Of a stretch of 64,000 nucleotides of DNA, positions 2,211-60,160 are shown in pieces (positions within the stretch are counted from its first letter, which is position 1; each line of letters opens with the position of its first letter). The stretch spans positions 620,001-684,000 of the forward strand of contig JAPNXP010000017.1 in NCBI GenBank assembly GCA_028753945.1, read 5' to 3'. The position numbers were made by a program, and so were the translations under genes. Under the pieces are notes generated by a model. The model had not been told where the DNA came from and did no database searches. It saw nothing but the letters and a program-made list of their open reading frames with translations. This stretch comes from Hexactinellida sp. DTS-2022. Taxonomy: Eukaryota; Porifera; Hexactinellida.

Positions 2211-3723
2211 TGGCTACTCCTGTTTCTAGTTGTGATGCTTTTTAGGAGGAAAAGAAAAAGAATTGTGTTGACTATTTCTGACAAGCTCAAGATCTGTGAG
2301 ATGGTGAGTAATGGAAGATCTTTGACGAGCGTTGCTAGAGAATTTGATAGATCGAAATCTTCAATTCATGATGTCATAGTGAATAACCAGGATAAGCTAA
2401 AGACTTTCTTACAGAAATTCAGGACGGCGACTGTATTAATAATAGGCGAATAGTTAGAAGAGCTGATCTAGTGCCGCTAGATAAAGTAGTGTATATGTGG
2501 TTCGTTCAGCTGTGTTGCAAGGGAAGTACAATTAGTGGCCCACTGTTGATGGCTAAAGCCTGCAACTTTATCCATTGATATATACTAATGACTCAGATCC
2601 TAGCTCATTCAAAGCAGGAACAGGATGGCTCAAGAAGTTTAAAAACAGGCATGTAATTAGAGCTGTGTCGGTTCAAGGGGAATCGAAGTCTGCATCTTCA
2701 GAAAGTATCAATCCCTTCAAGGAACATCTGCAAAAACTCATTGAGGAGAAGGGCTTATCTTTGAACCAGTTGTTCAACTGCGATGAAACTGGTCTGTATT
2801 GGAAGTTGATGCTGAATAGAACACTTGTTTCATCCAGGGAGAAAGAAGCTAAATGTTTCAAGGGTCCGAAAGATCGCGTTACAGTCATGCCTTGCGCAAA
2901 TGCCACTGGATCGATCAAATTCCTTCCTTTGTTCATTCACAAGTCACTTAATCCACGCTGCTTTAAAAATGTGGCCAAAAATGATCTTCCAGTCGACTAT
3001 TATGCACAAAAGAGCTCCTGGATGGATTCCTCCATTATCACAAATTTGTTCAACGAAAAGTTTCTCCCCCAATGCCAAAAAGCTCTTGGAGAAAAAGTTC
3101 TTCCCAAATGGGCCATTCTCCATTTGGACAATGCTCCATCCCATCCTAATATAAAATCTTTATGCACAAGCTACGGAGAAATATCTTCCCTTACCTTCCT
3201 CCTAATACTACGTCTTTAATCCAACCAATGGATCAGGGGTTAATAATAAACATTTAGCGTCGTTAAAAGCGTGATTTGTTGCTTCGCATTCTTAACAAGG
3301 AGAATGAAGGATTGAACATAGCCGAGTTCACCAAAACCCTTACTATCTTAGATGCTGTTATGATGTCTGCTAAATGTTGGAGAGAGATAGAGGAATCAAC
3401 AATAGCTGGAAGCTGGAGCAAGTTCTTGTCTGCCGGATGTCGCGGAATACGAAGGAACCGATACCAGTAGTATAGAGATATATGCAAATAATGGATGAAC
3501 TTCATGTTCAAACTGAAGAAAATCGGATTGGCTCATGCTCGAGAATAGTACAAAGGCTACCATGAATATACTGATGTTGAAATATTGGCGAATGTTAAAA
3601 AAGAATTGAGGAGATTGACGAAGAAGATGACCATAATTACCCTCGTGCACAAGCCTGCGAGGCATTGGAAACGCTTCTTGCGTATCTGGAGCAGCAACCC
3701 GATGTAGCGTTTGGAACTAAGTG
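2211..3723 (+). pseudogene. pogo/Tigger (CENP-B/jerky-like) transposase pseudogene
   Basis: This is a cut-and-paste DDE transposase remnant. An N-terminal CENP-B-type helix-turn-helix is readable from about 2250 (KRIVLTISDKLKICEMVSNG, then SVAREFDRSKSSIHD). The central DDE_1 domain is open from 2575 to 3219, with FNCDETGLYW carrying the first catalytic Asp and LHLDNAPSHP the second. The following segment (YLPPNTTSLIQPMDQG-like) is in a shifted frame at 3185-3240. A C-terminal part (CWREIEESTIAGSWSKFL) ends near 3723. An in-frame TAG after the presumed start at 2211 and at least three frame changes show it is inactive. The family assignment is secure from the motifs; exact ends are approximate. 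Confidence 0.85.
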
Positions 3724-4256: not shown

Positions 4257-4968
4257 TTTCTCACACATACTAAAACTACAATTTGTCCATGCATGCTAAT
4301 ACGCGTTAATCCTATTAGAATTTCCAATAAATTATATTATCTTTCTTGTTTACGAATTAATTTCAGTTATTCTAATGTTGAAAAACTGTGGGGGGGGGGG
4401 GCAAATGCTCCCCAGGAATCCGCCGTTGGATGTACGTCAATTGTATAATACAAAAAGAACAAGTTTAGCCAAGTTAGCTCCTCATTTGACTATGAAATCC
4501 TGTTTTCCGTGTAAGATAGAGCGTCAAAATGTCAAACTGGTTTTCAAAGTCGTTAACGAATTATTAACAATATCTGCGCGACTATCCAGAACGAATTGCG
4601 TTATCCAGAATATAGAAATAATACTCCTGAGTTTGTTGATACCCTTCTTACTTTTGGAAATTATTCACCGTTGATACAACATTTAACATTTGTCATTAAG
4701 TCTAAGTAGTTTATTCGAAACTTCCACTGACTTTAAATTATTGAATAGCTGTATTGTAGTACAGCCCTTCAGTATAACCCTTATCTGCTGTATTACGTGA
4801 TTGTAGGATGGCTATATTTCGTTATATATCTGTTCTTTATTGCATTCTTGTAGCACCAAATTTGGTAGTTATTGTTATAGAATATTGTACTTTTGAGGAT
4901 GAAGATGACTCAAACTTGCGTACTCCGTCCGTTTGACACTAATTATTTTCTTCAATTAGAATTTTACT
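4257..4968. promoter_or_regulatory. 5' flank of malectin, no clear core element
   Basis: This interval should hold the malectin promoter and 5' untranslated region if the ATG at 4969 is the true start. I see a 12-base G run at 4389-4400 and AT-rich sequence, but no convincing TATA box or initiator. The 99-residue ORF over the G run has no recognisable motif. Confidence 0.3.
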
Positions 4969-6927: not shown

Positions 6928-7105
6928 ACTGTGCCGACTATACTATAGTATAGTGGCCCAGTTCTAATCTAACTGCCTTGGTTAGTTAATAATAATACTG
7001 TGCCGACTATACTTAAGTATAGTGGCCCAGTTCTACTCTTACTGCCTTTATTACTGTGCCGACTATACTATAGTATAGTGGCCCAGTATTGAAATGACTG
7101 CCTTT
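6928..7105 (+). repeat. palindrome-core short repeats, copies 4-6
   Basis: There are three same-direction units starting at 6928, about 6997 and about 7053, each ACTGTGCCGACTATAC... followed by GTGGCCCAGT. In the middle copy the core is ACTATACTTAAGTATAGT, still a perfect palindrome although both central bases differ from the other copies. Confidence 0.8.
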
Positions 7106-7135
7106 ATTATTTATATTATTATTTATATTTCTCCG

Positions 7136-7140
7136 TAACC
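7136..7140. repeat. left target-site duplication TAACC
   Basis: It is identical to 10116-10120 and directly abuts CACAGTGGCAC. Five base pairs is the duplication length of Transib/RAG-type transposition. Confidence 0.85.
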
Positions 7141-7358
7141 CACAGTGGCACGAAACGTCAATTTGGTGGTATTGAGTATTTATGTAAACTTTAAGGCTAT
7201 AAAATGTATTATTGACCTATAGGTTATCGAACCTAAAAAATCGATTGACATATTCAGATAATTTGTAAAGCTTATGGTTCACAAGTTATGACGTCATGGG
7301 AGTTATGCTACAATTTCCAAAAAGTGTTAAATACAACATATCCAATAGATGAGATTTT

Positions 7359-9509
7359 TTAATCAAGTTCTGGTAACAGAAGTGAATTAACAAGCAGTTC
7401 TTGATTACTAATATCTTCTTCTAACATGCAATTATCTGGTACTGGTTTCTTTAGCTTTCTATTGAGTAAGAGGACTGGGTCGCTTTGACATAACATTCGA
7501 GTAAAAACATCCTTAATATTATCTTCAAAACTGAACTTACGAGATAAGCGTTCTCTATATCTACGGATTAACTTATTACTCGCCTCAAGACCTTCTTCAG
7601 ATAGTTGTTCCAGCCCTAGTCCATTATTGAAAGCTGAGATTATATTAGGTGCATGTGCCAACACTTTGTGTAACGTAGGCGTAATATTTGCCCAAGGAAA
7701 AGAATTCAAAATCAAGATATATAGTTTCTGGCATACTACCGTTAGTTCTTCTGTGTCTATTCGTCTTCCACAATTATACACTCTCAAGATAGCTCCGAGG
7801 TAGGTATGAATGTCTATTATAGCCTCTTTGGATTCTGTCGGTATTGTTGACAGCACCCAGTATAAGAAATCCTTCTCACTGTTATTTTTTCGTACTAAAC
7901 ATCGCCTAGCTACATTTCCTGTGGTTGAAGTTCCGCCTTGTGAAGAAGCAAAATCAATCATGATATTTAACTTTTCTTTTAGTAATCCACAGAGAAAATT
8001 CTTCGCACTATGGACTTTCGGTGAACTAGGTGACCATTTTCTAACTCCGGCACTCAGATGACCTAACAAATGCATTAACCAACTAAAACATCGAAGATAT
8101 GCGTGTAAAGGTGAACTGGGAATTATGTCTATGTCAGATAACGGGACATGAGTGAGATTAAAACGTTGGTCAGTAGTTAGCGAGAGGAATTGTTCTTCGT
8201 TTACTTCTTGGAATATAACCTTAGCATCACTAATAAACCTATTAATTGGAAAACCATCTCTGACGATATCTACATCATGGATCTGTTTGAATGTGGCAGT
8301 ACAGAACTGGCAGGACGCACCTCCAGCACCGCTAAGAATTCCGGCCATTTTACCATCCAACTGTGAACGTAAGATCACTACGCTGGCATGATGACTATTA
8401 ATTAAATCAAGTCCATTTGCTTCAATATCAGCAGTTTCTTTGTTGATCATTGTTTTCATAAGAAAACTCACATTTTCCTGGTTTTCTGGAAGTGCAAGAA
8501 TTGTGACTGGTCTAATAGAGAAGGGAGAGTTGGGTACAGAGTTTTTCCATACAGTATTATTCTTTTCATCCGAAATAGTTAAAACTTTAAAACCAAAGAT
8601 GATAAAATTCTTCGTAGTGATATCTGGATGAGGTACTGCTTGTTGATAGACACGATGGGATCCAGAACCATCTAAGCCATCTGAAATCCTAACTTTCAGT
8701 GGTAGTTCAAAATCATCGATAGGGATATTCTCTATAATTCGATTAACTGTATGAGTAAGCAACTTGTGGTACGAAATGCCGATGCCAATTGGATAGTCCC
8801 TCTCCACAAAATGCATTTCATCCACTAAGCTAATTTGCCTACGATGAAGAACTACGCGATTATAACCAGGGAGGTTAATGGATTCAGCCAGTAAAATACG
8901 CCTAAGATCAATATACTTAGACTTCCCAATTTCGAGGGAGTCGAACATGAATGCTGACGAATCTAACGAAAGTTTGTTATCGGTTTGTCCGAATTTTCCT
9001 GTTTGGATTAGCTCCTTGGTCAGATTTGCTGTATTTATGTCGTATTCGTCCAAAGAATATAATTTGACTAGGTACATGGATATTATCTTTGGAGAAAAAT
9101 TTTCATGTTGAGCAACAGCTTCAATATGTGACATGATCGTTGCTAGTCGGTTACGAAGAGCTTTGTTTTGTACATCGGAAATATGTTTCAGAAGCTTTCG
9201 ACAGAAATTCTCCGTGAATTCGACTGTTGATTGGCTAGCAGGTAATGGTTCCATGGAGAGGTCTTCATTTGAGTGAGAGCTCACTACTGAATTTACAAGA
9301 GTAGAAGTGAAATAAAAGTTATTCCAGGTGGCTATGTCCTTCTCTTTTGAATAGATCATTCGCTCATTCTTTATGTTAGCAAATTTTCTCCTGAAAATGT
9401 CAAACTCTGATTCATCAAGATTGAATTTGGCAATAAATTCACGAGAAATTTGACTGAAGCTTTTCTGTGAGTTTATTGTGTAGAAGTTAAATGCTTCTTC
9501 ATTGTTCAT
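7359..9509 (-). CDS. RAG1/Transib-superfamily transposase, intact
   Basis: An uninterrupted 716-codon ORF that would cleave at the CACAGTG ends. The ATG at 9509 is chosen because the 9-nt upstream extension begins with TTG. RAG1-core features in order are: LKVRISDGLDGSG (first catalytic Asp about residue 277); a C-x2-C knuckle SCQFC (400/403); PSSPLHAYLRCFSWL; GGTSTTGNVARRC, matching the RAG1 NGNxARKL region; HKVLAHAPNI (zinc His pair 614/619); and SEEGLEASNKLIRRYRE, containing the catalytic Glu at about 642 and the RAG1-like NKLxRRxR. In RAG1 the second Asp follows LHC; here that position is Tyr, with SDIDII just upstream, so the second acid is uncertain. The N-terminal 270 residues match nothing I recognise; no RING is seen. 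It lies alone in its element. Confidence 0.88.
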   Translation of the reverse strand: MNNEEAFNFYTINSQKSFSQISREFIAKFNLDESEFDIFRRKFANIKNERMIYSKEKDIATWNNFYFTSTLVNSVVSSHSNEDLSMEPLPASQSTVEFTENFCRKLLKHISDVQNKALRNRLATIMSHIEAVAQHENFSPKIISMYLVKLYSLDEYDINTANLTKELIQTGKFGQTDNKLSLDSSAFMFDSLEIGKSKYIDLRRILLAESINLPGYNRVVLHRRQISLVDEMHFVERDYPIGIGISYHKLLTHTVNRIIENIPIDDFELPLKVRISDGLDGSGSHRVYQQAVPHPDITTKNFIIFGFKVLTISDEKNNTVWKNSVPNSPFSIRPVTILALPENQENVSFLMKTMINKETADIEANGLDLINSHHASVVILRSQLDGKMAGILSGAGGASCQFCTATFKQIHDVDIVRDGFPINRFISDAKVIFQEVNEEQFLSLTTDQRFNLTHVPLSDIDIIPSSPLHAYLRCFSWLMHLLGHLSAGVRKWSPSSPKVHSAKNFLCGLLKEKLNIMIDFASSQGGTSTTGNVARRCLVRKNNSEKDFLYWVLSTIPTESKEAIIDIHTYLGAILRVYNCGRRIDTEELTVVCQKLYILILNSFPWANITPTLHKVLAHAPNIISAFNNGLGLEQLSEEGLEASNKLIRRYRERLSRKFSFEDNIKDVFTRMLCQSDPVLLLNRKLKKPVPDNCMLEEDISNQELLVNSLLLPELD

Positions 9510-10104
9510 CTTTTCCAACGAAAGGGAAATAATTGATTATGCTAATCACCCATAACATTTAATTTGAGGAATATTTTGTAAAAATTATAATTTAAATAAA
9601 AAACACCTATTATAAACAAACAAAATACCCTTCAGCGCTAACTTGCGGTAACCTAGGAATAATTTTATTACATCCGAGATATTATTTCCTTTAAAATCGT
9701 ATATCGCTTTCAACTGGCAACAGTAGGCAAAAATATATTTTATGGCACGAATTTTACGGTCGTTTTGAAATTTTTATAAACCCAACCAATTATGGAAATG
9801 AACGAATAACTACATTTTATCATATTGTGCATTTTAAATACTTCAAAATAATATCTAATAGTAGGCATAAAGCTCAGAGCATAAGGTGTAACTATTCTGG
9901 ATTCCAAACTCACTTTAATGAAACTACACATTTCAAAATTTCTGTCATTGTGGTTAATTGACTAATAATTCCAAATTTATCCAAGTATCACTATGTAATG
10001 ACATGTAGTTGTAACATTTCTATGTACTCGAATATGGAGGATTCGATAAAAACTACTTTCAGAATCATTTATTGATACTAAATTTCTTGCTAAGACTACC
10101 TACT

Positions 10105-10115
10105 GTGCCACTGTG
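10105..10115 (-). repeat. right terminal inverted repeat with RSS-like heptamer
   Basis: GTGCCACTGTG, the complement of the left end. It directly abuts the right TAACC duplication at 10116-10120. The sequence just inside, TACCTACTGTGCCACTGTG, contains a second overlapping CTGTG. Confidence 0.85.
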
Positions 10116-10808
10116 TAACCGGTGCCCTGTCCACACCTGTATACATTGAGGGCTGAAACTTGGCATGCAGGTGCGGAGTGACCGTCTAATATGCACCTGG
10201 GGTTACGATTTTTGATCAAATTATTTTAACACCTATTTAAACTAATTATGGCTCATAAAATAAAATAATTATTATTGAGCGAGATAAAATTTACATGTAC
10301 GGATAGAAAATAAAATTCTACATCTTTTGGCAAATCACAAATGTTCATTTTGGCCTAGGTTTGTGCCATAATTGGGGTACCGATTCCTGTATTTCCTCAC
10401 ACTTCAGATTCAGTAAAACTGTTAAATCTAATTCTATTGTTTCAACTTGTAATAAATTTATTGATTTACCTTGTTAAATCTTTCACTATTGTTTCAATTT
10501 GCGTAATTATATGTATTTAACTTTTGAATTCGAGCTGGCTTCTATTTAATTGTAGTATTACTATACAATGGATTAAATATAACATAATTATATAAGGAAT
10601 TTATTGACTTTACTCAACTCACCGTGGATAACATTGCTAAAATACATAACTAATAATATAATTTATTTTATCAATACATAATGAATGAATGGTTGTAAAC
10701 TCTAGATAGTTTATGATAGAAACAAACTTCAAATTTATCTACCATTCCTTGTGACTCAGACCAATTAACAAATGGTTCTTGACACCCCGAGGCGTTGATG
10801 ACTTGGCG

Positions 10809-14371: not shown

Positions 14372-15571
14372 ATGACTTCAATAGAGCAATTCGTGGAAGC
14401 TCTCCAGAAACTCGGCTATGAAAGCTTCGATAGCGTAAGAGATGCTTTGAACAAAGGAGACAAACATAAGCCAAAATCTGTCTGGGGAAAATTATCAATT
14501 ATTCTTTTTGGAAAAAACAAGGCTACTAAGCGCGATTCTCTCAGCTCCAAATGGAGATTGAATAGAGGAAACTTTCAGCATCTCGTTAAGCAAATGATCA
14601 GTTCGCGTAAGTCTATCATTACCAATGATGTATCCCAATTGGCAGTAGAGCATATCAGTACTCAGTTAGTATCTGCTAGCTCATATCCTGACACTATAGA
14701 ACTCAGTAAGAGGAGTTTGGATGAAATCGATTTAAGTTTTCCTAGTTTACAGCGAGACGTAACGAATAACAGTTTGTTAGGTTTATTGGCATCTGGTTGC
14801 GATGACTGCCAGCTTTACGGTCTCATGTCTAAGATAGCTTCTCCTCCTCCCCAAACAGGGAGGACTGATAGCCATTTTTGGTCATTCATTAACTGTAATA
14901 ATAGTCTATGGTTAGATGCTATGAAATTTTTCAGCTTAGAGTGTCCGCTTGTTAGTGGTGAGTTCATGCTAGTGGATGACAAACTCCACGACCAGTCGAA
15001 AAAGTTTAGTTGCTGTCTAATGGAGTCAATGCAATGGATTCGACTAATTAGGCGAAATTGTAACTTAGTGGAAGCATGGATTTTAGTTGAAAACATTAGT
15101 TGTAGGATATTAGAGCTATTCGGGAATTCATATATAGCTATCACAGTCCAACAACTAGATTTATTCACTAGCTTTATTATATCGTGTCGAGAAAGATCAG
15201 ATACTTTAAGCTCATTTCATGAATCTCTGTGTCTAAAATTGCATCATACCTCTTCTTCTTCAAATCAACAAGTCCCGGTATTGTCATCTACCGATGACCC
15301 GCAACCTGAAATTGTTATTACCTCTAATATCCCTGAGTCCAAATTGCTAGTGCCATCAGTAGATGACAGTACTCTGGGTAATGAAGTCATAGTTGAACAA
15401 TCCATGTTTAGTGAGGAAATCTGTGGTGAATTTTTGCTAAGTGGAATGGAATGGAATGGATCAACTTTTGAAGAGTTAATGAAGGCGCCAACCCCAAATG
15501 GGATATATATACGAAATATTGGGAATCATTATGAACCAATTATTTCTGTTAAATTCGAAAATAATAGTTAA
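14372..15571 (+). CDS. unrecognised 399-residue protein inside the MULE-like element
   Basis: An uninterrupted ORF from a true ATG to TAA. I do not recognise its family. The N-terminal 35 residues (FVEALQKLGYESFDSVRDAL) look helical and polar. A basic stretch follows (KNKATKRDSLSSKWRLNRGN, about residues 49-68). The middle is Cys-containing (GCDDCQLYGL; FSCCLMESMQW; VENISCRILELF) and ends in a Ser/Thr-rich linker at about 290-340. The C-terminus has WNGSTFEELMKAPTPNGIYI then NHYEPIISV, vaguely like the end of an OTU protease, but no catalytic Cys context is visible. It is the only long ORF between the long inverted ends. It could be a self-encoded transposition factor or a captured host fragment; I cannot decide. 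Confidence 0.6.
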   Translation: MTSIEQFVEALQKLGYESFDSVRDALNKGDKHKPKSVWGKLSIILFGKNKATKRDSLSSKWRLNRGNFQHLVKQMISSRKSIITNDVSQLAVEHISTQLVSASSYPDTIELSKRSLDEIDLSFPSLQRDVTNNSLLGLLASGCDDCQLYGLMSKIASPPPQTGRTDSHFWSFINCNNSLWLDAMKFFSLECPLVSGEFMLVDDKLHDQSKKFSCCLMESMQWIRLIRRNCNLVEAWILVENISCRILELFGNSYIAITVQQLDLFTSFIISCRERSDTLSSFHESLCLKLHHTSSSSNQQVPVLSSTDDPQPEIVITSNIPESKLLVPSVDDSTLGNEVIVEQSMFSEEICGEFLLSGMEWNGSTFEELMKAPTPNGIYIRNIGNHYEPIISVKFENNS

Positions 15572-25266: not shown

Positions 25267-25982
25267 GGCCAAGTCATCAACGCCCAAGGTGTGAAGAACC
25301 ATTTGTTTATTGGTCGGAGTCACAAGGAACGATTGTTGAATTTGAAGTTTGTTTCTATCATAAACCATCTAGAGTTTAATGCCATTCATTCATTTTGTAT
25401 TGATAATAAAATATATTAGTAGTAATATATTTTAGCAATGTTATCCACGGTTGGTTGAGTTGAGTCAACAAATTCCTTATATTATTATATTTAATTTAAT
25501 CCATTGTATAGTAATACTACAATTGAATAGATGCCAGCTGGAATTTATAAGTTAAATCAATATATTTATCGCGAGTTGAATCAATAGAGTAAGATTTAAC
25601 AACTTGAATCAATTTATTCATTACAAGTTGAAACAATAGAATTAGATTTAACACTTTTAGTGAAACTGAAGTGTGAATAAACAAAGAGATTTCAACCCCT
25701 TTTTATGGCATGAATTAAACCGTTTATTAATACTTTTCTTCTCCCATAAAACGCAGAATCTTATGACGAATCCAATCGTGAAATAAAAATTGGGGGTTGA
25801 GTATAACATTTTTTGAGTTATGGACCGGACACATTTTGAAAGGTCTTAAAAATGTGTCCAAAATTTGTTAATATAAAATCGTGACCCCAGGTGCACATCT
25901 GTAACCCATGAGACACCCATCCTAAAAATTTGGGCTCTTAATTGATACAACTCTGTTCTGTGGAGTGGCTACGGATAAATAA

Positions 25983-26111
25983 TAAAAAAATCCAAAATTG
26001 CAGCTGTGCCGACGCATGTTCCTTTGGTGGCACTATATTTTGGTGGTGGTTTATTGATAGTGCCTCCAATGGAACATGCTGTCGGCACAGCTGCAATTTT
26101 GGATTTTTTTT
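25983..26111. repeat. long hairpin H6
   Basis: It has a shortened but still complementary stem (GCAGCTGTGCCGAC opposite GTCGGCACAGCTGC): both arms lack the same two bases compared with H4, a compensatory pair of changes. Confidence 0.88.
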
Positions 26112-27197
26112 CGCCATGTCATCATCACTATGAAGGTGTTAAATTATTTCAAAAGGGTGTTACAGAAGGCATCGACCCTTAGAGTGGTGGAAGTTTCCAT
26201 TTAGTTCACTTAATTTTAGAGATATTCAAGTTTGAGTAGAATATAATAGCTGATGACTCAGCATTTTTTATGTGAGTGTTGGGTCATCACCCAACATCAA
26301 CTATCCCATTTTAAATATCGAATTAACAAAATTGTAAAAACACATTTTATTGACGATGTCATCATCACCTCAAGGTGTCAAGACCCATTTGTAGAGGTGT
26401 TACGTGGCACAAGGATCAATTGATAAATTGGAAGTTTGTTTCTACCTTATTTGATTTCTGAGATTTCTGATATTTAATTAATTAGTATAAATAATAATTA
26501 ATATTATTTATAATTTAACACCAATTTCAATGTCAACTTACAATTATTAAGTTTAATTATTTTGTCATAAATAATTAATTAATTAATTTGGCTATCAAAT
26601 TTCAATTCCACACACTCGATAACCCCTAATAAACAAATTGGGAGCATCTATATAAGTCATATACTGACTGAATTAATTATAATTAATTACGTCAGTATAT
26701 TAACAGTCCAATAATATTCTCGCAGAAGTAAATATAATCACATAATCTGTCGTTGTTGTGAAATATATAATCTTTTTTTTCAATTGGAAAATAGAAGCCT
26801 ACTCGATCTCACAAGTTGAATCAATATAATAATAACGAGTTGAAACAATAGAATTAGATTTAACACTTTCAATTGAACTGAAGTGTTAGTAAACAAAGAA
26901 ATTTCAACCCCAATTTATGGCATGAATCAAACCTATTAGTAAAAACATTCATCTCCCATCAGATGGAGAATTTTATAGTGAATCCAATGGTGAAAATAAA
27001 ATTGGGGGTTTAGTATAACATTCTTTGAGTTATGGACCAGACAAAATTTGAAAGGTGTCAAAAAAAAGTCCAAAATTTGTTAATAAAAAATCGTGACCCC
27101 AGGTGCACATCTGTAACCCATGAGACACCTGTCCTGCAAATTTGGGTTGTTAGTTAATTAAACTCTGTTCTGTGGATGAGCTACGGAAGAATAATAA

Positions 27198-27597
27198 TAA
27201 CTAACCAAAGCACTAAGATTAGAACTGGGCCACTATACTATAGTATAGTCGGCACAGTAATAACTAACCAAAGCACTAAGATTAGAACTGGGCCACTATA
27301 CTATAGTATAGTCGGCACAGTAATAATAACTAACCAAGGCACTGAGATTAGAACTGGGCCACTATACTATAGTATAGTCGGCACAGTAATAATAATAATA
27401 ATAACTAACCAAAGCACTAAGACCAATACTGGGCCACTATACTATAGTATAGTCGGCACAGTAATAATAAAGGCAGTGATTCCAATACTGGGCCACTATA
27501 CTAAAGTATAGTCGGCACAGTAAAAATAATAATATTAAAGGCAGTAAGATTAGAACTGGGCCACTATACTATAGTATAGTCGGCACAGTAAAAAGAT
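27198..27597 (-). repeat. six palindrome-core short repeats, copies 9-14
   Basis: Six units in one direction are separated by (TAA)n. Four carry the AACTAACCAA...CACT left flank and two an AAAGGCAGT left flank. They occupy the place after CTACGG where a hairpin stands in the other joints. The fifth has a one-base break in its core (ACTATACTAAAGTATAGT). Confidence 0.88.
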
Positions 27598-27779
27598 TAA
27601 TTTAGTATAGTATGAGTACTTCAAAAAATTAGTTTTATTGTATTAATTTGAATTGATACTATTTTTAGAATTTTAAAAAATTCAATACTATAGAAACAAG
27701 ATAAAGGCATTCTGATATTCCTCAATTACTTTACATACACTGGTAGTTTGGTTCGCTTAGTAAAACATTTCTGCTTAGA

Positions 27780-28310
27780 TATTGCTCTATAATACAAGGC
27801 TTCCATGCTATTGGTGTGCACTAGCCTTAATCTCGGAGATGATACAAGATAGAAACAAACTTCCAATTTATCAATTGATCCTTATGCCACGTAACACCTC
27901 TACAAATGGGTGTTTACACCTTGAGGTGATGATGACATTGTTAAAAACATGTGTTTACAATTTTGTGAATTTTCTATTTCGAATGGGAAGGTTGGAGTTG
28001 GGTGAACACCCAACACGCACATAAAAATTCCTGACTCATCACCTATTTTATTCTACTGAAACATAAATATCTCTATTACGAAGTGAGGTAAATGGAACTT
28101 CCACCACTCTAAGGGCAGTTGCCTTCTGAACACCTTTCTGAATTTATTTAATACCTTCATAGTGATGATGACATGGCGAAAAAATCCAAAATTGCAGTTA
28201 CAGCATTTTCCTTGGAGGCACTATCAATTACCCAACCAGTAGCACCAAAAGATAGTGCCACCAAAGAGAAATGCGTCGGCACAGCTACAATTTTGGATTT
28301 TTCTTGTATT
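27780..28310 (-). repeat. inverted module B with hairpin H7
   Basis: Sequence from CTCGGAGATGATACAAGATA onward is nearly identical to 11655-11790 and is the complement of module B in the array. It ends in hairpin H7 at 28179-28302, whose stem has more mismatches (GCAGTTACAGCATTTTCC opposite AAATGCGTCGGCACAGC). The array is therefore closed by an inverted copy. Confidence 0.75.
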
Positions 28311-57829: not shown

Positions 57830-60160
57830 ATTCGGGAACGCGGAATTTGACCTACGACCTACTAGGAATTTGACATACAAATAAAGTAGGAATTTGACCT
57901 ACGTATGATGTAGGAATCTGACCTACGTAGATTCCGAAGTAGGAATTTGACCTACGGTACCCACATTTAAGACTTAGATCAACAAAAGTGATTACATTAA
58001 GTACTATTCTTAACGCAGACATTTGCTAATCTACAAATTATAACAAAGATACACATTTTCAGTGATTATAATGTATTTTATTGTATTGTAGATAACGAAG
58101 TAATTACGAATGAATGAATTATAACAAGATAACTGCTAATTATTGAAAGATTTGCATAATAGTAACTATTTCATTGCGACATATTGGACATGGTTTCTGT
58201 TCATCTATAAAGTGTTGCCCACAGTTTTTGCATAAATTCGCGTGACCACATGGAACTAGCGCGAACGTTACTTGTTTAGTTTTGCAACATATTAAGCAAA
58301 TATTAATAGTTCCTTCATTTGCATCATTTTCATCATTTCTCGTTTCCTCATTCTCAGTTTCTGTATTATTTATGGTGATGTACTGTGCAGAATTCTATTT
58401 CCCTATGTAGCCGATTGTGAGTGATATAGAATTGAGGTATTGCTGATTCGAATATATTCCATTCTTTAATTTATCTTTACATTCCTTCCTAAATTGAGCA
58501 TTTACAATATGCTTTCTCTTTGGGTTTCGGGTAATATTGAGCCCTTGTTCTAACCTCTGGTACTCACTTTCAAAATCAATTATTATCTTGTTCATATCTG
58601 ATACGAATTTCCATGAGTTTGGGTGATGAACTTTAACAACGGATTTCAATGTTTTATGGAAAGAGTCTGCACCATTGTTTGTTGCATGTTCATAAGAAAA
58701 TATAGATAAATTCTTTTCTCCAAGAATCCAAGTCTTTTTGTAATATCTTTTAAAAGTGTTGATTAGGTTGTTTACAATTTCACCCATTTCAAAATTTTGT
58801 GCTTCCAATTGAGAAAATATTTCTATGATCTCACTCTCAGGTAACCAGGGTAATGCCATCAACTTTCTGAGCCAGCTGGAAAATTCAGAATCCCTTTTGT
58901 AAACTGTTGAACTCCTAAAACTTGCGCTTTCTTCCAGATTGCCTGGGTGAAATGAAACCAGCAGCCAGTGATCTGTATTCCTGGGAATAATCGTTTGAAA
59001 ACATTCCTAGGTGCCTTTTCGAAATCGCTGATGGCCATTTTGGAGAAAATTCAGGAATTATTTCGAGTAATTTCACGAGAACTGTAAAGTATAGCTCTTC
59101 GATCTTATTTTGCATCAAAATGTGAACAGCAGGAACACTGTGTCGATTAAATGATATGAAAATTGTGAATAGCTGGTAAAATAAACGCGGTACTGTGTAG
59201 AATGTGCCATCAAATTGAATTTGTTGAGCTACCTTTAGCTTCTCGAGCATGAAGTCTGATGCTAGAATAACTGCTGACCCTCCATTAATATTAACAGTTG
59301 CCTTATACAAATAGGAATATGGAGTTTCAATAATTAGTTGGCAGAAATCTTGAATATCCTTTGGGAGAGGTGGGAGTAATTTTCTTCTTCTTTTGCACAT
59401 GCTACTTTCTATTTCTTGAAATGATACCAATGTGCTAGCAGGATCTCCCCGACATGTATTATTGAAAACTTCGCGTAATTTTTCTGAGTCACATTCAGCG
59501 GCTCTTTTCAACTGATTCCGTAAAGCGATTTTGGGACGTTTGTATGCATTCTCATCATGGTGGTGTTCCCGTGTTAACCTTAAAGTATTAGCAACATGAT
59601 CAATATGAACATATCCTGGACATCCTGAGGCTCTATTGAGTATGCATTTAACGTAGGAGCAACTTTGGGAGGAGCGAACTTTCACGTATAAATAATCTCC
59701 TGATTCGTAATTAAGAGAATTAACCTTTTTCCCTTCAACCATATAATATTCCATTTGGCAAACAATAGTAAACAATAAATATCCAATATTTTTTCCGTTG
59801 AATATGAGTATACTATATACGTATATATATATCGCATATATATATATATAAATATGACATGCAGCCATTCAAAGAAGTGGTTAAATTTTATTATTTCCCA
59901 CTTCACTTGAACAATTGAAGTATTTTTTATCACTCTTCTCGATTTGTTTAATGCATTGTTGTTCGCCATCTACTTTTAACAATTGTGTGAGAATAAATTC
60001 GTACCTCAAAAGTGCAAAGGTTTCTCATTACTTAGATCAAATTCCCACGTTGGTCATATTCCTAAATCGGAATATGTGTAGGTCACATTCCTACACCGGT
60101 ATATATGTAGGTCAAATTCCTACTTTGATGTAGGTCAAATTCCGGCGTCGCGGGAAATTC
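57830..60160 (-). mobile_element. MULE with subterminal GGAATTTGACCTACG repeats
   Basis: The left end (57838-57957) has four copies of a GGAATTTGACCTACG-type motif. The right end (60050-60150) has three in complement (TGTAGGTCAAATTCC). GCGGAATTTGACCTACG near the left tip and GCCGGAATTTGACCTACATC (complement) near the right tip mark the termini. A MULE transposase pseudogene lies between. No exact 9-bp duplication was resolved, so the edges are approximate. Confidence 0.7.
58140..59754 (-). pseudogene. MULE transposase with FLYWCH-like finger and C-terminal RING
   Basis: The start is put at 59754 (MEYYMVEGKK) because the upstream extension is low-complexity TATA. An FLYWCH-like finger follows (YLYVKV; YVKCILNRASGCPG; HHHDEN). 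The MULE domain has QFDGTFYTVPRLFYQLF, then, after a frame slip near 59035, ISDFEKAPRNVF and GCWFHFTQAIWKKAQ. A second slip near 58905 precedes WLRKLMALPWLPESEI, open to 58395. In-frame TAG at 58395 is followed by 84 more codons to 58140 with a C3HC4 RING finger: CLICCKTKQVTFALVPCGHA, NLCKNCGQHF, CPICRNE. Without the TAG the RING would be the transposase C-terminus. Inactive in this copy. Confidence 0.78.

Follow-up and report, generated by a model that had tools for sequence, protein, structure and literature searches.

The window analysed here is a stretch of 64,000 nucleotides from the glass sponge Hexactinellida sp. DTS-2022 (GenBank assembly GCA_028753945.1, contig JAPNXP010000017.1, positions 620,001 to 684,000). 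It contains a transposable element of 2,975 bp at positions 7141-10115, delimited by exact 11-bp inverted tips with TAACC flanking on both sides. The left tip, CACAGTGGCAC, occupies 7141-7151 on the plus strand, and its exact reverse complement finishes at 10115, so that the right tip (10105-10115, minus strand) again reads CACAGTGGCAC inward. The left copy of the target-site duplication TAACC lies at 7136-7140 and equals the five bases of the right copy at 10116-10120. The first seven bases of both tips are exactly the heptamer CACAGTG of the vertebrate recombination signal sequence (RSS). A single open reading frame (ORF) of at least 150 amino acids (aa) lies within the element: it encodes a Transib transposase of 716 aa on the minus strand (7359-9509, ATG at 9509, stop at 7359) and is uninterrupted, while the plus strand of the same interval contains many stops. 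Only 218 and 606 bp remain outside this ORF, and a RAG2-like gene within 7141-10115 was not found, there being neither a second ORF of 150 aa nor space for one. The initial annotation, made by a model from the letters of the window, had described the perfect tips, their identity with the V(D)J heptamer, the 5-bp duplication, the uninterrupted 716-codon ORF and the lack of a RAG2-like partner; all of these are borne out, and the duplication has the length typical of RAG and Transib.

By its sequence, the ORF is an intact DDE transposase of the RAG1-core type. The predicted catalytic triad consists of D280 (8670-8672), D385 (8355-8357) and E642 (7584-7586), all on the minus strand, and the putative zinc site of CxxC at residues 400-403 and HKVLAH at 614-619. 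The five RAG1-core landmarks first named from the sequence were all located in the protein, with DGLDG at residue 277, CQFC at 400, GNVAR at 531, HKVLAH at 614 and GLEASNKLIRRYR at 640. The Pfam RAG1 profile matched with 27.2 bits against a cut-off of 25, in agreement with the RAG1-like identity assigned before. The closest of the reference proteins is that of HzTransib (PDB 6pqn/6pqx), a Helicoverpa element: it was matched at E 3.5e-28, versus 1.3e-7 for BbRAG1L and 2e-6 at best for RAG1, and with 101 versus 33 bits for BbRAG1L. Profile comparison gave 8e-87 for HzTransib, 2.3e-28 for BbRAG1L and 5e-19 for RAG1, and alignment with the HzTransib structure showed 25% identity. A G-T-[ST] stretch ahead of GN.AR is present in the sponge proteins, in HzTransib and in a further matched protein, P0069, but not in BbRAG1L or RAG1, and the sponge proteins lack a 4-residue insertion common to the latter two. 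As read from the alignment, R and E are both absent from the sponge protein at the sites corresponding to mouse R848 and E649, and the R848 site adjoins a gap.

Sequence similarity thus places the element in the Transib superfamily, a known group without RAG2, and not in a hitherto unknown RAG1-only branch, as had been proposed at first. The features of Transib are present, namely a single transposase homologous to the RAG1 core, heptamer-like terminal inverted repeats (TIRs) starting with CAC, and a 5-bp duplication. The features of the RAG1-like/RAG2-like (RAG1L-RAG2L, or RAGL) transposons of the ProtoRAG type, a RAG2L gene beside RAG1L and a C-terminal tail (CTT) of the CTT* type with a CCGHC motif, are absent. 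Of the RSS features, the heptamer CACAGTG occurs at both ends, while the vertebrate nonamer ACAAAAACC was not found at 12 or 23 bp at the ends of the window element. As for Transib Subgroup I, the CTT1 tail is lacking in the window protein, and asymmetric TIRs were seen in six of eight families but were not significant in family A, that of the window element.

All named matches in the protein searches (in one of them the best 120 of 122) belong to Oopsacas minuta, and among the other protein matches listed only P0068 and P0069 are clearly apart. In a tree of 34 rows, 29 rows (O. minuta and unnamed relatives, and two proteins of the sponge's own genome) fall on one branch (95/94). Two further groups are HzTransib plus P0069 (100/100) and RAG1L of the lancelet plus mouse RAG1 (100/99); P0068 stands apart. 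The tree has a midpoint root only, no bacterial outgroup and long branches, and cannot therefore order events. Scans of prokaryote and viral contigs gave 34 and 27 pattern matches, respectively, none of them confirmed as relatives, so that these contigs supplied no outgroup for a rooted tree. For this reason, a bearing on how V(D)J recombination arose, suggested in the initial annotation, is something that we can only infer.

The DNA search covered the 112.4-Mb genome in 18 contigs and yielded 51 matching stretches, several of them per single element. Forty loci were fetched, plus short end stretches. We sorted the copies into families A, A2, B, C, D, E1, E2 and F. As the DNA searches scored best candidates only, the numbers of families and of copies are minimum values. 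The same tips recur on other copies, some full-length and some internally deleted. Among 27 elements with both ends read, the 5-bp duplication was exact in 18, one base off in four and further off in five. Flanks cross-paired from different elements agreed exactly in 0 of 702 cases and with at most one mismatch in 12 of 702. These counts omit copies with one readable end only (e.g. L010, L011, L013, L014, L016, L018, L020, L023 and L028) and, in family F, the copy at C11:7192690-7195680 (L075/L076) with its degraded short tip. L067/L068 was retained: its tip begins TACAGTG, and the five bases preceding that T were taken as its flank. Truncated copies L013 and L014, 14 kb apart on contig C11, have the identical left flank GAAAT and probably represent a segmental duplication rather than two insertions. 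The family-F copies L049/L050 and L043 show an apparent 5-bp duplication with two extra bases between it and one tip.

The ratio of non-synonymous to synonymous change (dN/dS) of the window ORF was 0.24-0.28 against four family-A2 copies, 0.08 against two family-B copies and 1.05 against the 97% copy L009. Other values were 0.42 (L010), 0.24 (L018), and 1.68 (L013) and 12.9 (L011), the last two from 7 and 16 changes, respectively; L024 and L027, the latter a family-C copy with an open ORF, were saturated and gave no value. The transposase has been under past purifying selection, presumably followed by neutral drift after insertion. The window copy shares its ends with L009 but sits at another site, and the synonymous difference between the two is 1.1%, from which it follows that family A transposed fairly recently.

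In six of the eight families (B, C, D, E1, E2 and F), both ends have a second element inward of the CAC tip, and at the gene-3' end it lies farther in, by 9 bp in five families and by 10 bp in one. The first description of the locus was correct in reporting no ACAAAAACC, but missed a second end element at asymmetric distance that most of the related families share. In family B this element is GGTGGAAATA, 24 and 15 bases in from the tips, the short tip being CACAATG. The same distances apply to AGGTCGATTAGGTA in the family-E1 copy on contig C1 (14 identical bases), to ACA.CGATTA.GT in E2 and to ACA..CATTAGG in D. Family C has TGGAA.TAG at 26 and 17 bases, and family F has GTGGAAATAGG at 26 and 16 bases in nine of ten copies and at 25 and 16 in the other. 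Second elements of the sister families are thus GGTGGAAATA-like or of an ATTAGG type. In a shuffle test, a 12-base match as good at shift 9/10 was reached by 0-2 of 2000 shuffles in each of the six families; with any shift from -12 to 19 allowed, the numbers were 7 (B), 36 (C), 33 (D), 0 (E1), 39 (E2) and 1 (F). The long end lies on the 3' side of the gene and the short end on the 5' side wherever both ends and the gene direction could be read, and each of the ten family-F copies fetched as end pairs combines a long end with a short one. The second element varies among families, yet it matches at the two ends of a given element; the simplest reading is therefore that of a candidate binding site recognized at both ends. 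In the window element, candidate second elements are GGTGGTATTGAG at the long, gene-3' end (7165-7176, plus strand), 24 bases in from the tip and kin to GGTGGAAATA of family B, and, at the short, gene-5' end, GGTAGTCTTAGC read inward (10089-10100, minus strand), 15 bases in and degenerate.

Three regions of the protein bear on its relationship to RAG1. Residues 103-150 (9060-9203, minus strand) form a region homologous to the nonamer-binding domain (NBD) of RAG1, on the basis of a profile match and of alignments with the same region of RAG1. The profile, built from 16 slices, matched the RAG1 NBD 3gna at E 1.4e-5, and the best 16 of the 24 PDB sequences listed are all RAG1. An equivalent NBD has been reported in both Transib subgroups (PMC9435367). 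Alignments with RAG1 further indicate an equivalent of the alpha11-alpha12 region at residues 404-466 (8112-8300, minus strand), between CxxC and PLH. This interval comprises about 60 residues in the sponge protein versus a short stretch in HzTransib, and the predicted model has helices within residues 407-449. Subgroup I Transibs are described as retaining the region and Subgroup II as having lost it (PMC9435367). At the C-terminus, the window protein (P0001) ends in ...NRKLKKPVPDNCMLEEDISNQELLVNSLLLPELD and has neither a CTT1 tail (C-x2-C-x3-GH-x4-C) nor a CCGHC tail of the CTT* type. A C-x2-C-x3-GH-x(3-7)-C tail occurs in 10 of the 24 fetched proteins of at least 640 aa, and in 0 of the 10 rows of the window protein's clade. 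Three further proteins (P0021, P0107 and P0108) have a degenerate form of the motif, and locus L037 of the sponge's own genome carries it. The CTT* of lancelet RAG1L binds end DNA, and invertebrate RAG1L has been proposed to lean on CTT* more than on a nonamer (PMC7204232).

Among known systems, HzTransib belongs, to judge from its description, to Transib Subgroup II in the sense of PMC9435367 and is without the alpha11-alpha12 region that the sponge protein keeps. With Subgroup I (PMC9435367) the sponge elements share this region, asymmetric ends at the level of families, and a CTT1-like tail in sister sponge clades; they differ by the absence of CTT1 from the window clade. Drosophila Transib5 and Anopheles Transib2 and N1-N3 are likewise RAG2-less and combine a heptamer with a second element whose distance differs between the ends (PMC8355894). 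These insect elements are reported with 12/23 +/- 1 spacers and RSS-like nonamers, whereas the sponge elements show a difference of 9-10 bp and other second elements; given the insect spacers, asymmetric ends without RAG2 are in themselves no novelty. The ends of AanRAGL from Aureococcus anophagefferens consist of a 13-bp element, a 4- or 13-bp spacer and a 10-bp element (PMC9435367). They share with the sponge elements the two-part asymmetric build, the 9-bp difference and the 5-bp duplications, but AanRAGL encodes RAG1L and RAG2L and has another end sequence. The lancelet ProtoRAG/BbRAGL differs by two genes, a CACTATG heptamer and a CTT* tail (PMC8289069, PMC7204232), and its end spacing is 27/31 (PMC8289069). 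The vertebrate RSS consensus is CACAGTG-N12/23-ACAAAAACC (PMC9723617). Vertebrate RAG1/2 and its RSS have in common with the sponge elements the heptamer CACAGTG, a second element, unequal spacing, an NBD homologue and the lack of a CCGHC tail, but the sponge elements have no RAG2, their second element differs from ACAAAAACC, and its shift between the ends amounts to 9-10 instead of 11 bp. The heptamer is followed by GG in families E2 and F and mostly by GC in the other families read. Of the consensus heptamers in a RAG1/2 cell assay, CACAGTG with GG after it had the lowest rank (PMC9723617), which suggests caution about the V(D)J link.

We interpret the element as an autonomous cut-and-paste Transib transposon of the glass-sponge genome with paired long and short ends, with a probability of about 85%. 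By homology to HzTransib and RAG, two transposase subunits would engage one end of each length, make a nick 5' of CAC and complete the cut through a hairpin formed on the flank; the freed ends would be joined to the target with a 5-bp stagger. The second element would be read by the region homologous to the RAG1 NBD, so that a long end would pair with a short end, as a 12-RSS does with a 23-RSS, with no RAG2 needed. Several observations weigh against this interpretation. In family A itself, 8 of 12 bases match at shift 9, which is not significant (163 of 2000 shuffles at 9/10, 1380 of 2000 at any shift), and in wider windows shift -2 scored higher, with 9 of 12. Family A2 has no second element (5-6 of 12 bases match), and one of the ten family-F copies shows a difference of 9 rather than 10 bp. 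At about 15-17 and 24-26 bases from the tip, the second elements correspond neither to 12/23 spacing nor to ACAAAAACC. The full-length 97% copy is broken by three stops and three frame-shifting gaps, and the NBD region, folded alone and with no alignment, gave a poor model (pLDDT 64), which was not used further.

Since these sequences are short and the window family is not significant, the second elements shifted by 9 bp could be chance matches, the more so as up to 39 of 2000 shuffles match in single families when any shift is allowed. Such an origin is scarcely credible, given a shift that is equal in five families and 10 bp in the sixth, the 0-2 of 2000 shuffles at shift 9/10 in each, and the 14 identical bases in the E1 copy on C1. 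Degeneration of the short-end second element in A and its absence from A2, together with the stops or frame-shifting gaps of the longer near-identical copies, would also suit a window copy that was recently immobilized, its ORF intact but its short-end second element lost and with it the capacity for self-mobility. We consider this unlikely; the identical tips and exact duplication of the window copy argue against it, as does the small synonymous difference from L009, which has the same ends at another site. One long intact ORF in a family under past purifying selection might also be expected of a domesticated RAG1-like host gene lying between repeats by chance, but the tips, the exact duplication and the dispersed copies with the same tips make this almost inconceivable.

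A different history, in which the sponge elements descend not from Transib stock but from a RAG1L-RAG2L transposon that lost RAG2L, follows an alternative order of events raised in PMC7204232. The sponge proteins keep the alpha11-alpha12 region, which contacts RAG2 and is not in HzTransib, they possess an NBD homologue, and sister clades carry the RAG1L-like tail described above. The sequence is nevertheless closer to HzTransib than to BbRAG1L, the G-T-[ST] stretch is shared with HzTransib and P0069 and the insertion of BbRAG1L and RAG1 is missing, while PMC9435367 holds the same regions to be ancestral and retained in Transib Subgroup I. Descent from RAGL therefore appears improbable, and the Transib transposon with paired ends is preferred.

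Further repeats and genes lie in the vicinity of the element and elsewhere in the window. Tandem arrays of a palindromic unit, CTGGGCCACTATACTATAGTATAGTCGGCACAG, plus linker, with periods of 56-75 bp, occupy 6930-7109 and 27192-27600; the first stops at 7109, near the insertion site of the element, and the unit contains GGCACAGT, which is also present in the right end of the element. A CAC-ended pair at 26126-28164 was considered as a further element and rejected: the repeat continues outward beyond the supposed duplication and is therefore part of a long fold-back repeat. This imperfect repeat spans 25978-28310, and its four longest arm pairs measure 56-154 nt with 81-91% complementarity. A DDE_1 transposase fragment (PF03184, 67.9 bits) lies at 2575-3219 on the plus strand. 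An ORF of 317 aa at 58915-59868 (minus strand) has weak, below-cut-off matches to MULE and FLYWCH and is perhaps a further transposase; another of 399 aa at 14372-15571 (plus strand) has no Pfam match at E 0.01. Outside the window, a repeat of about 215 bp matching both strands lies within a family-D element, upstream of the transposase gene (L041, about 1293-1507). It occurs at dozens of places in the genome with up to 100% identity and is probably a recently active miniature element. A near-identical dispersed repeat of about 216 bp lies just outside the family-F element L043 (flank, about 4572-4789).

The main interest lies in the surrounding radiation, in which RAG2-free elements of a sponge combine RSS-like, asymmetric two-part ends with an NBD homologue. 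No report of Transib in sponges was found by title or start of abstract, in a search that left most subscription papers and the transposon databases outside; the word Transib does not occur in the main texts of the glass-sponge genome papers examined, nor do 'sponge' and 'Porifera' in the main text of PMC9435367. Tentatively, and at somewhat short of even odds, we see here a glass-sponge radiation of RAG2-free RAG1-type transposons, whose ends combine the heptamer with a second element, placed at two distances that differ by about one helical turn and read by an NBD homologue, and of which the window branch lost the CCGHC tail, as did vertebrate RAG1. If so, the loss of the tail in one sponge branch would parallel, independently, that in vertebrate RAG1. 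How the 12/23 rule arose is debated. According to a review, the rule may depend on later evolution of RAG2 in vertebrates, while 12/23-type asymmetry exists in some insect Transibs (PMC8355894); asymmetric two-part ends have been held to be ancestral (PMC8289069, PMC9435367). To this the sponge would contribute transposons of one gene whose heptamer is exactly the vertebrate one and whose second element covaries between the ends, with an asymmetry fixed at 9-10 bp. Because one-gene transposons with several sequence versions of the second element are at hand, a 12/23-type rule would become testable without RAG2. If the interpretation is true, asymmetric two-part pairing and the NBD would be open to study in a system of one protein with a natural variety of second elements, and would be older than RAG2 or independent of it, back to sponges.
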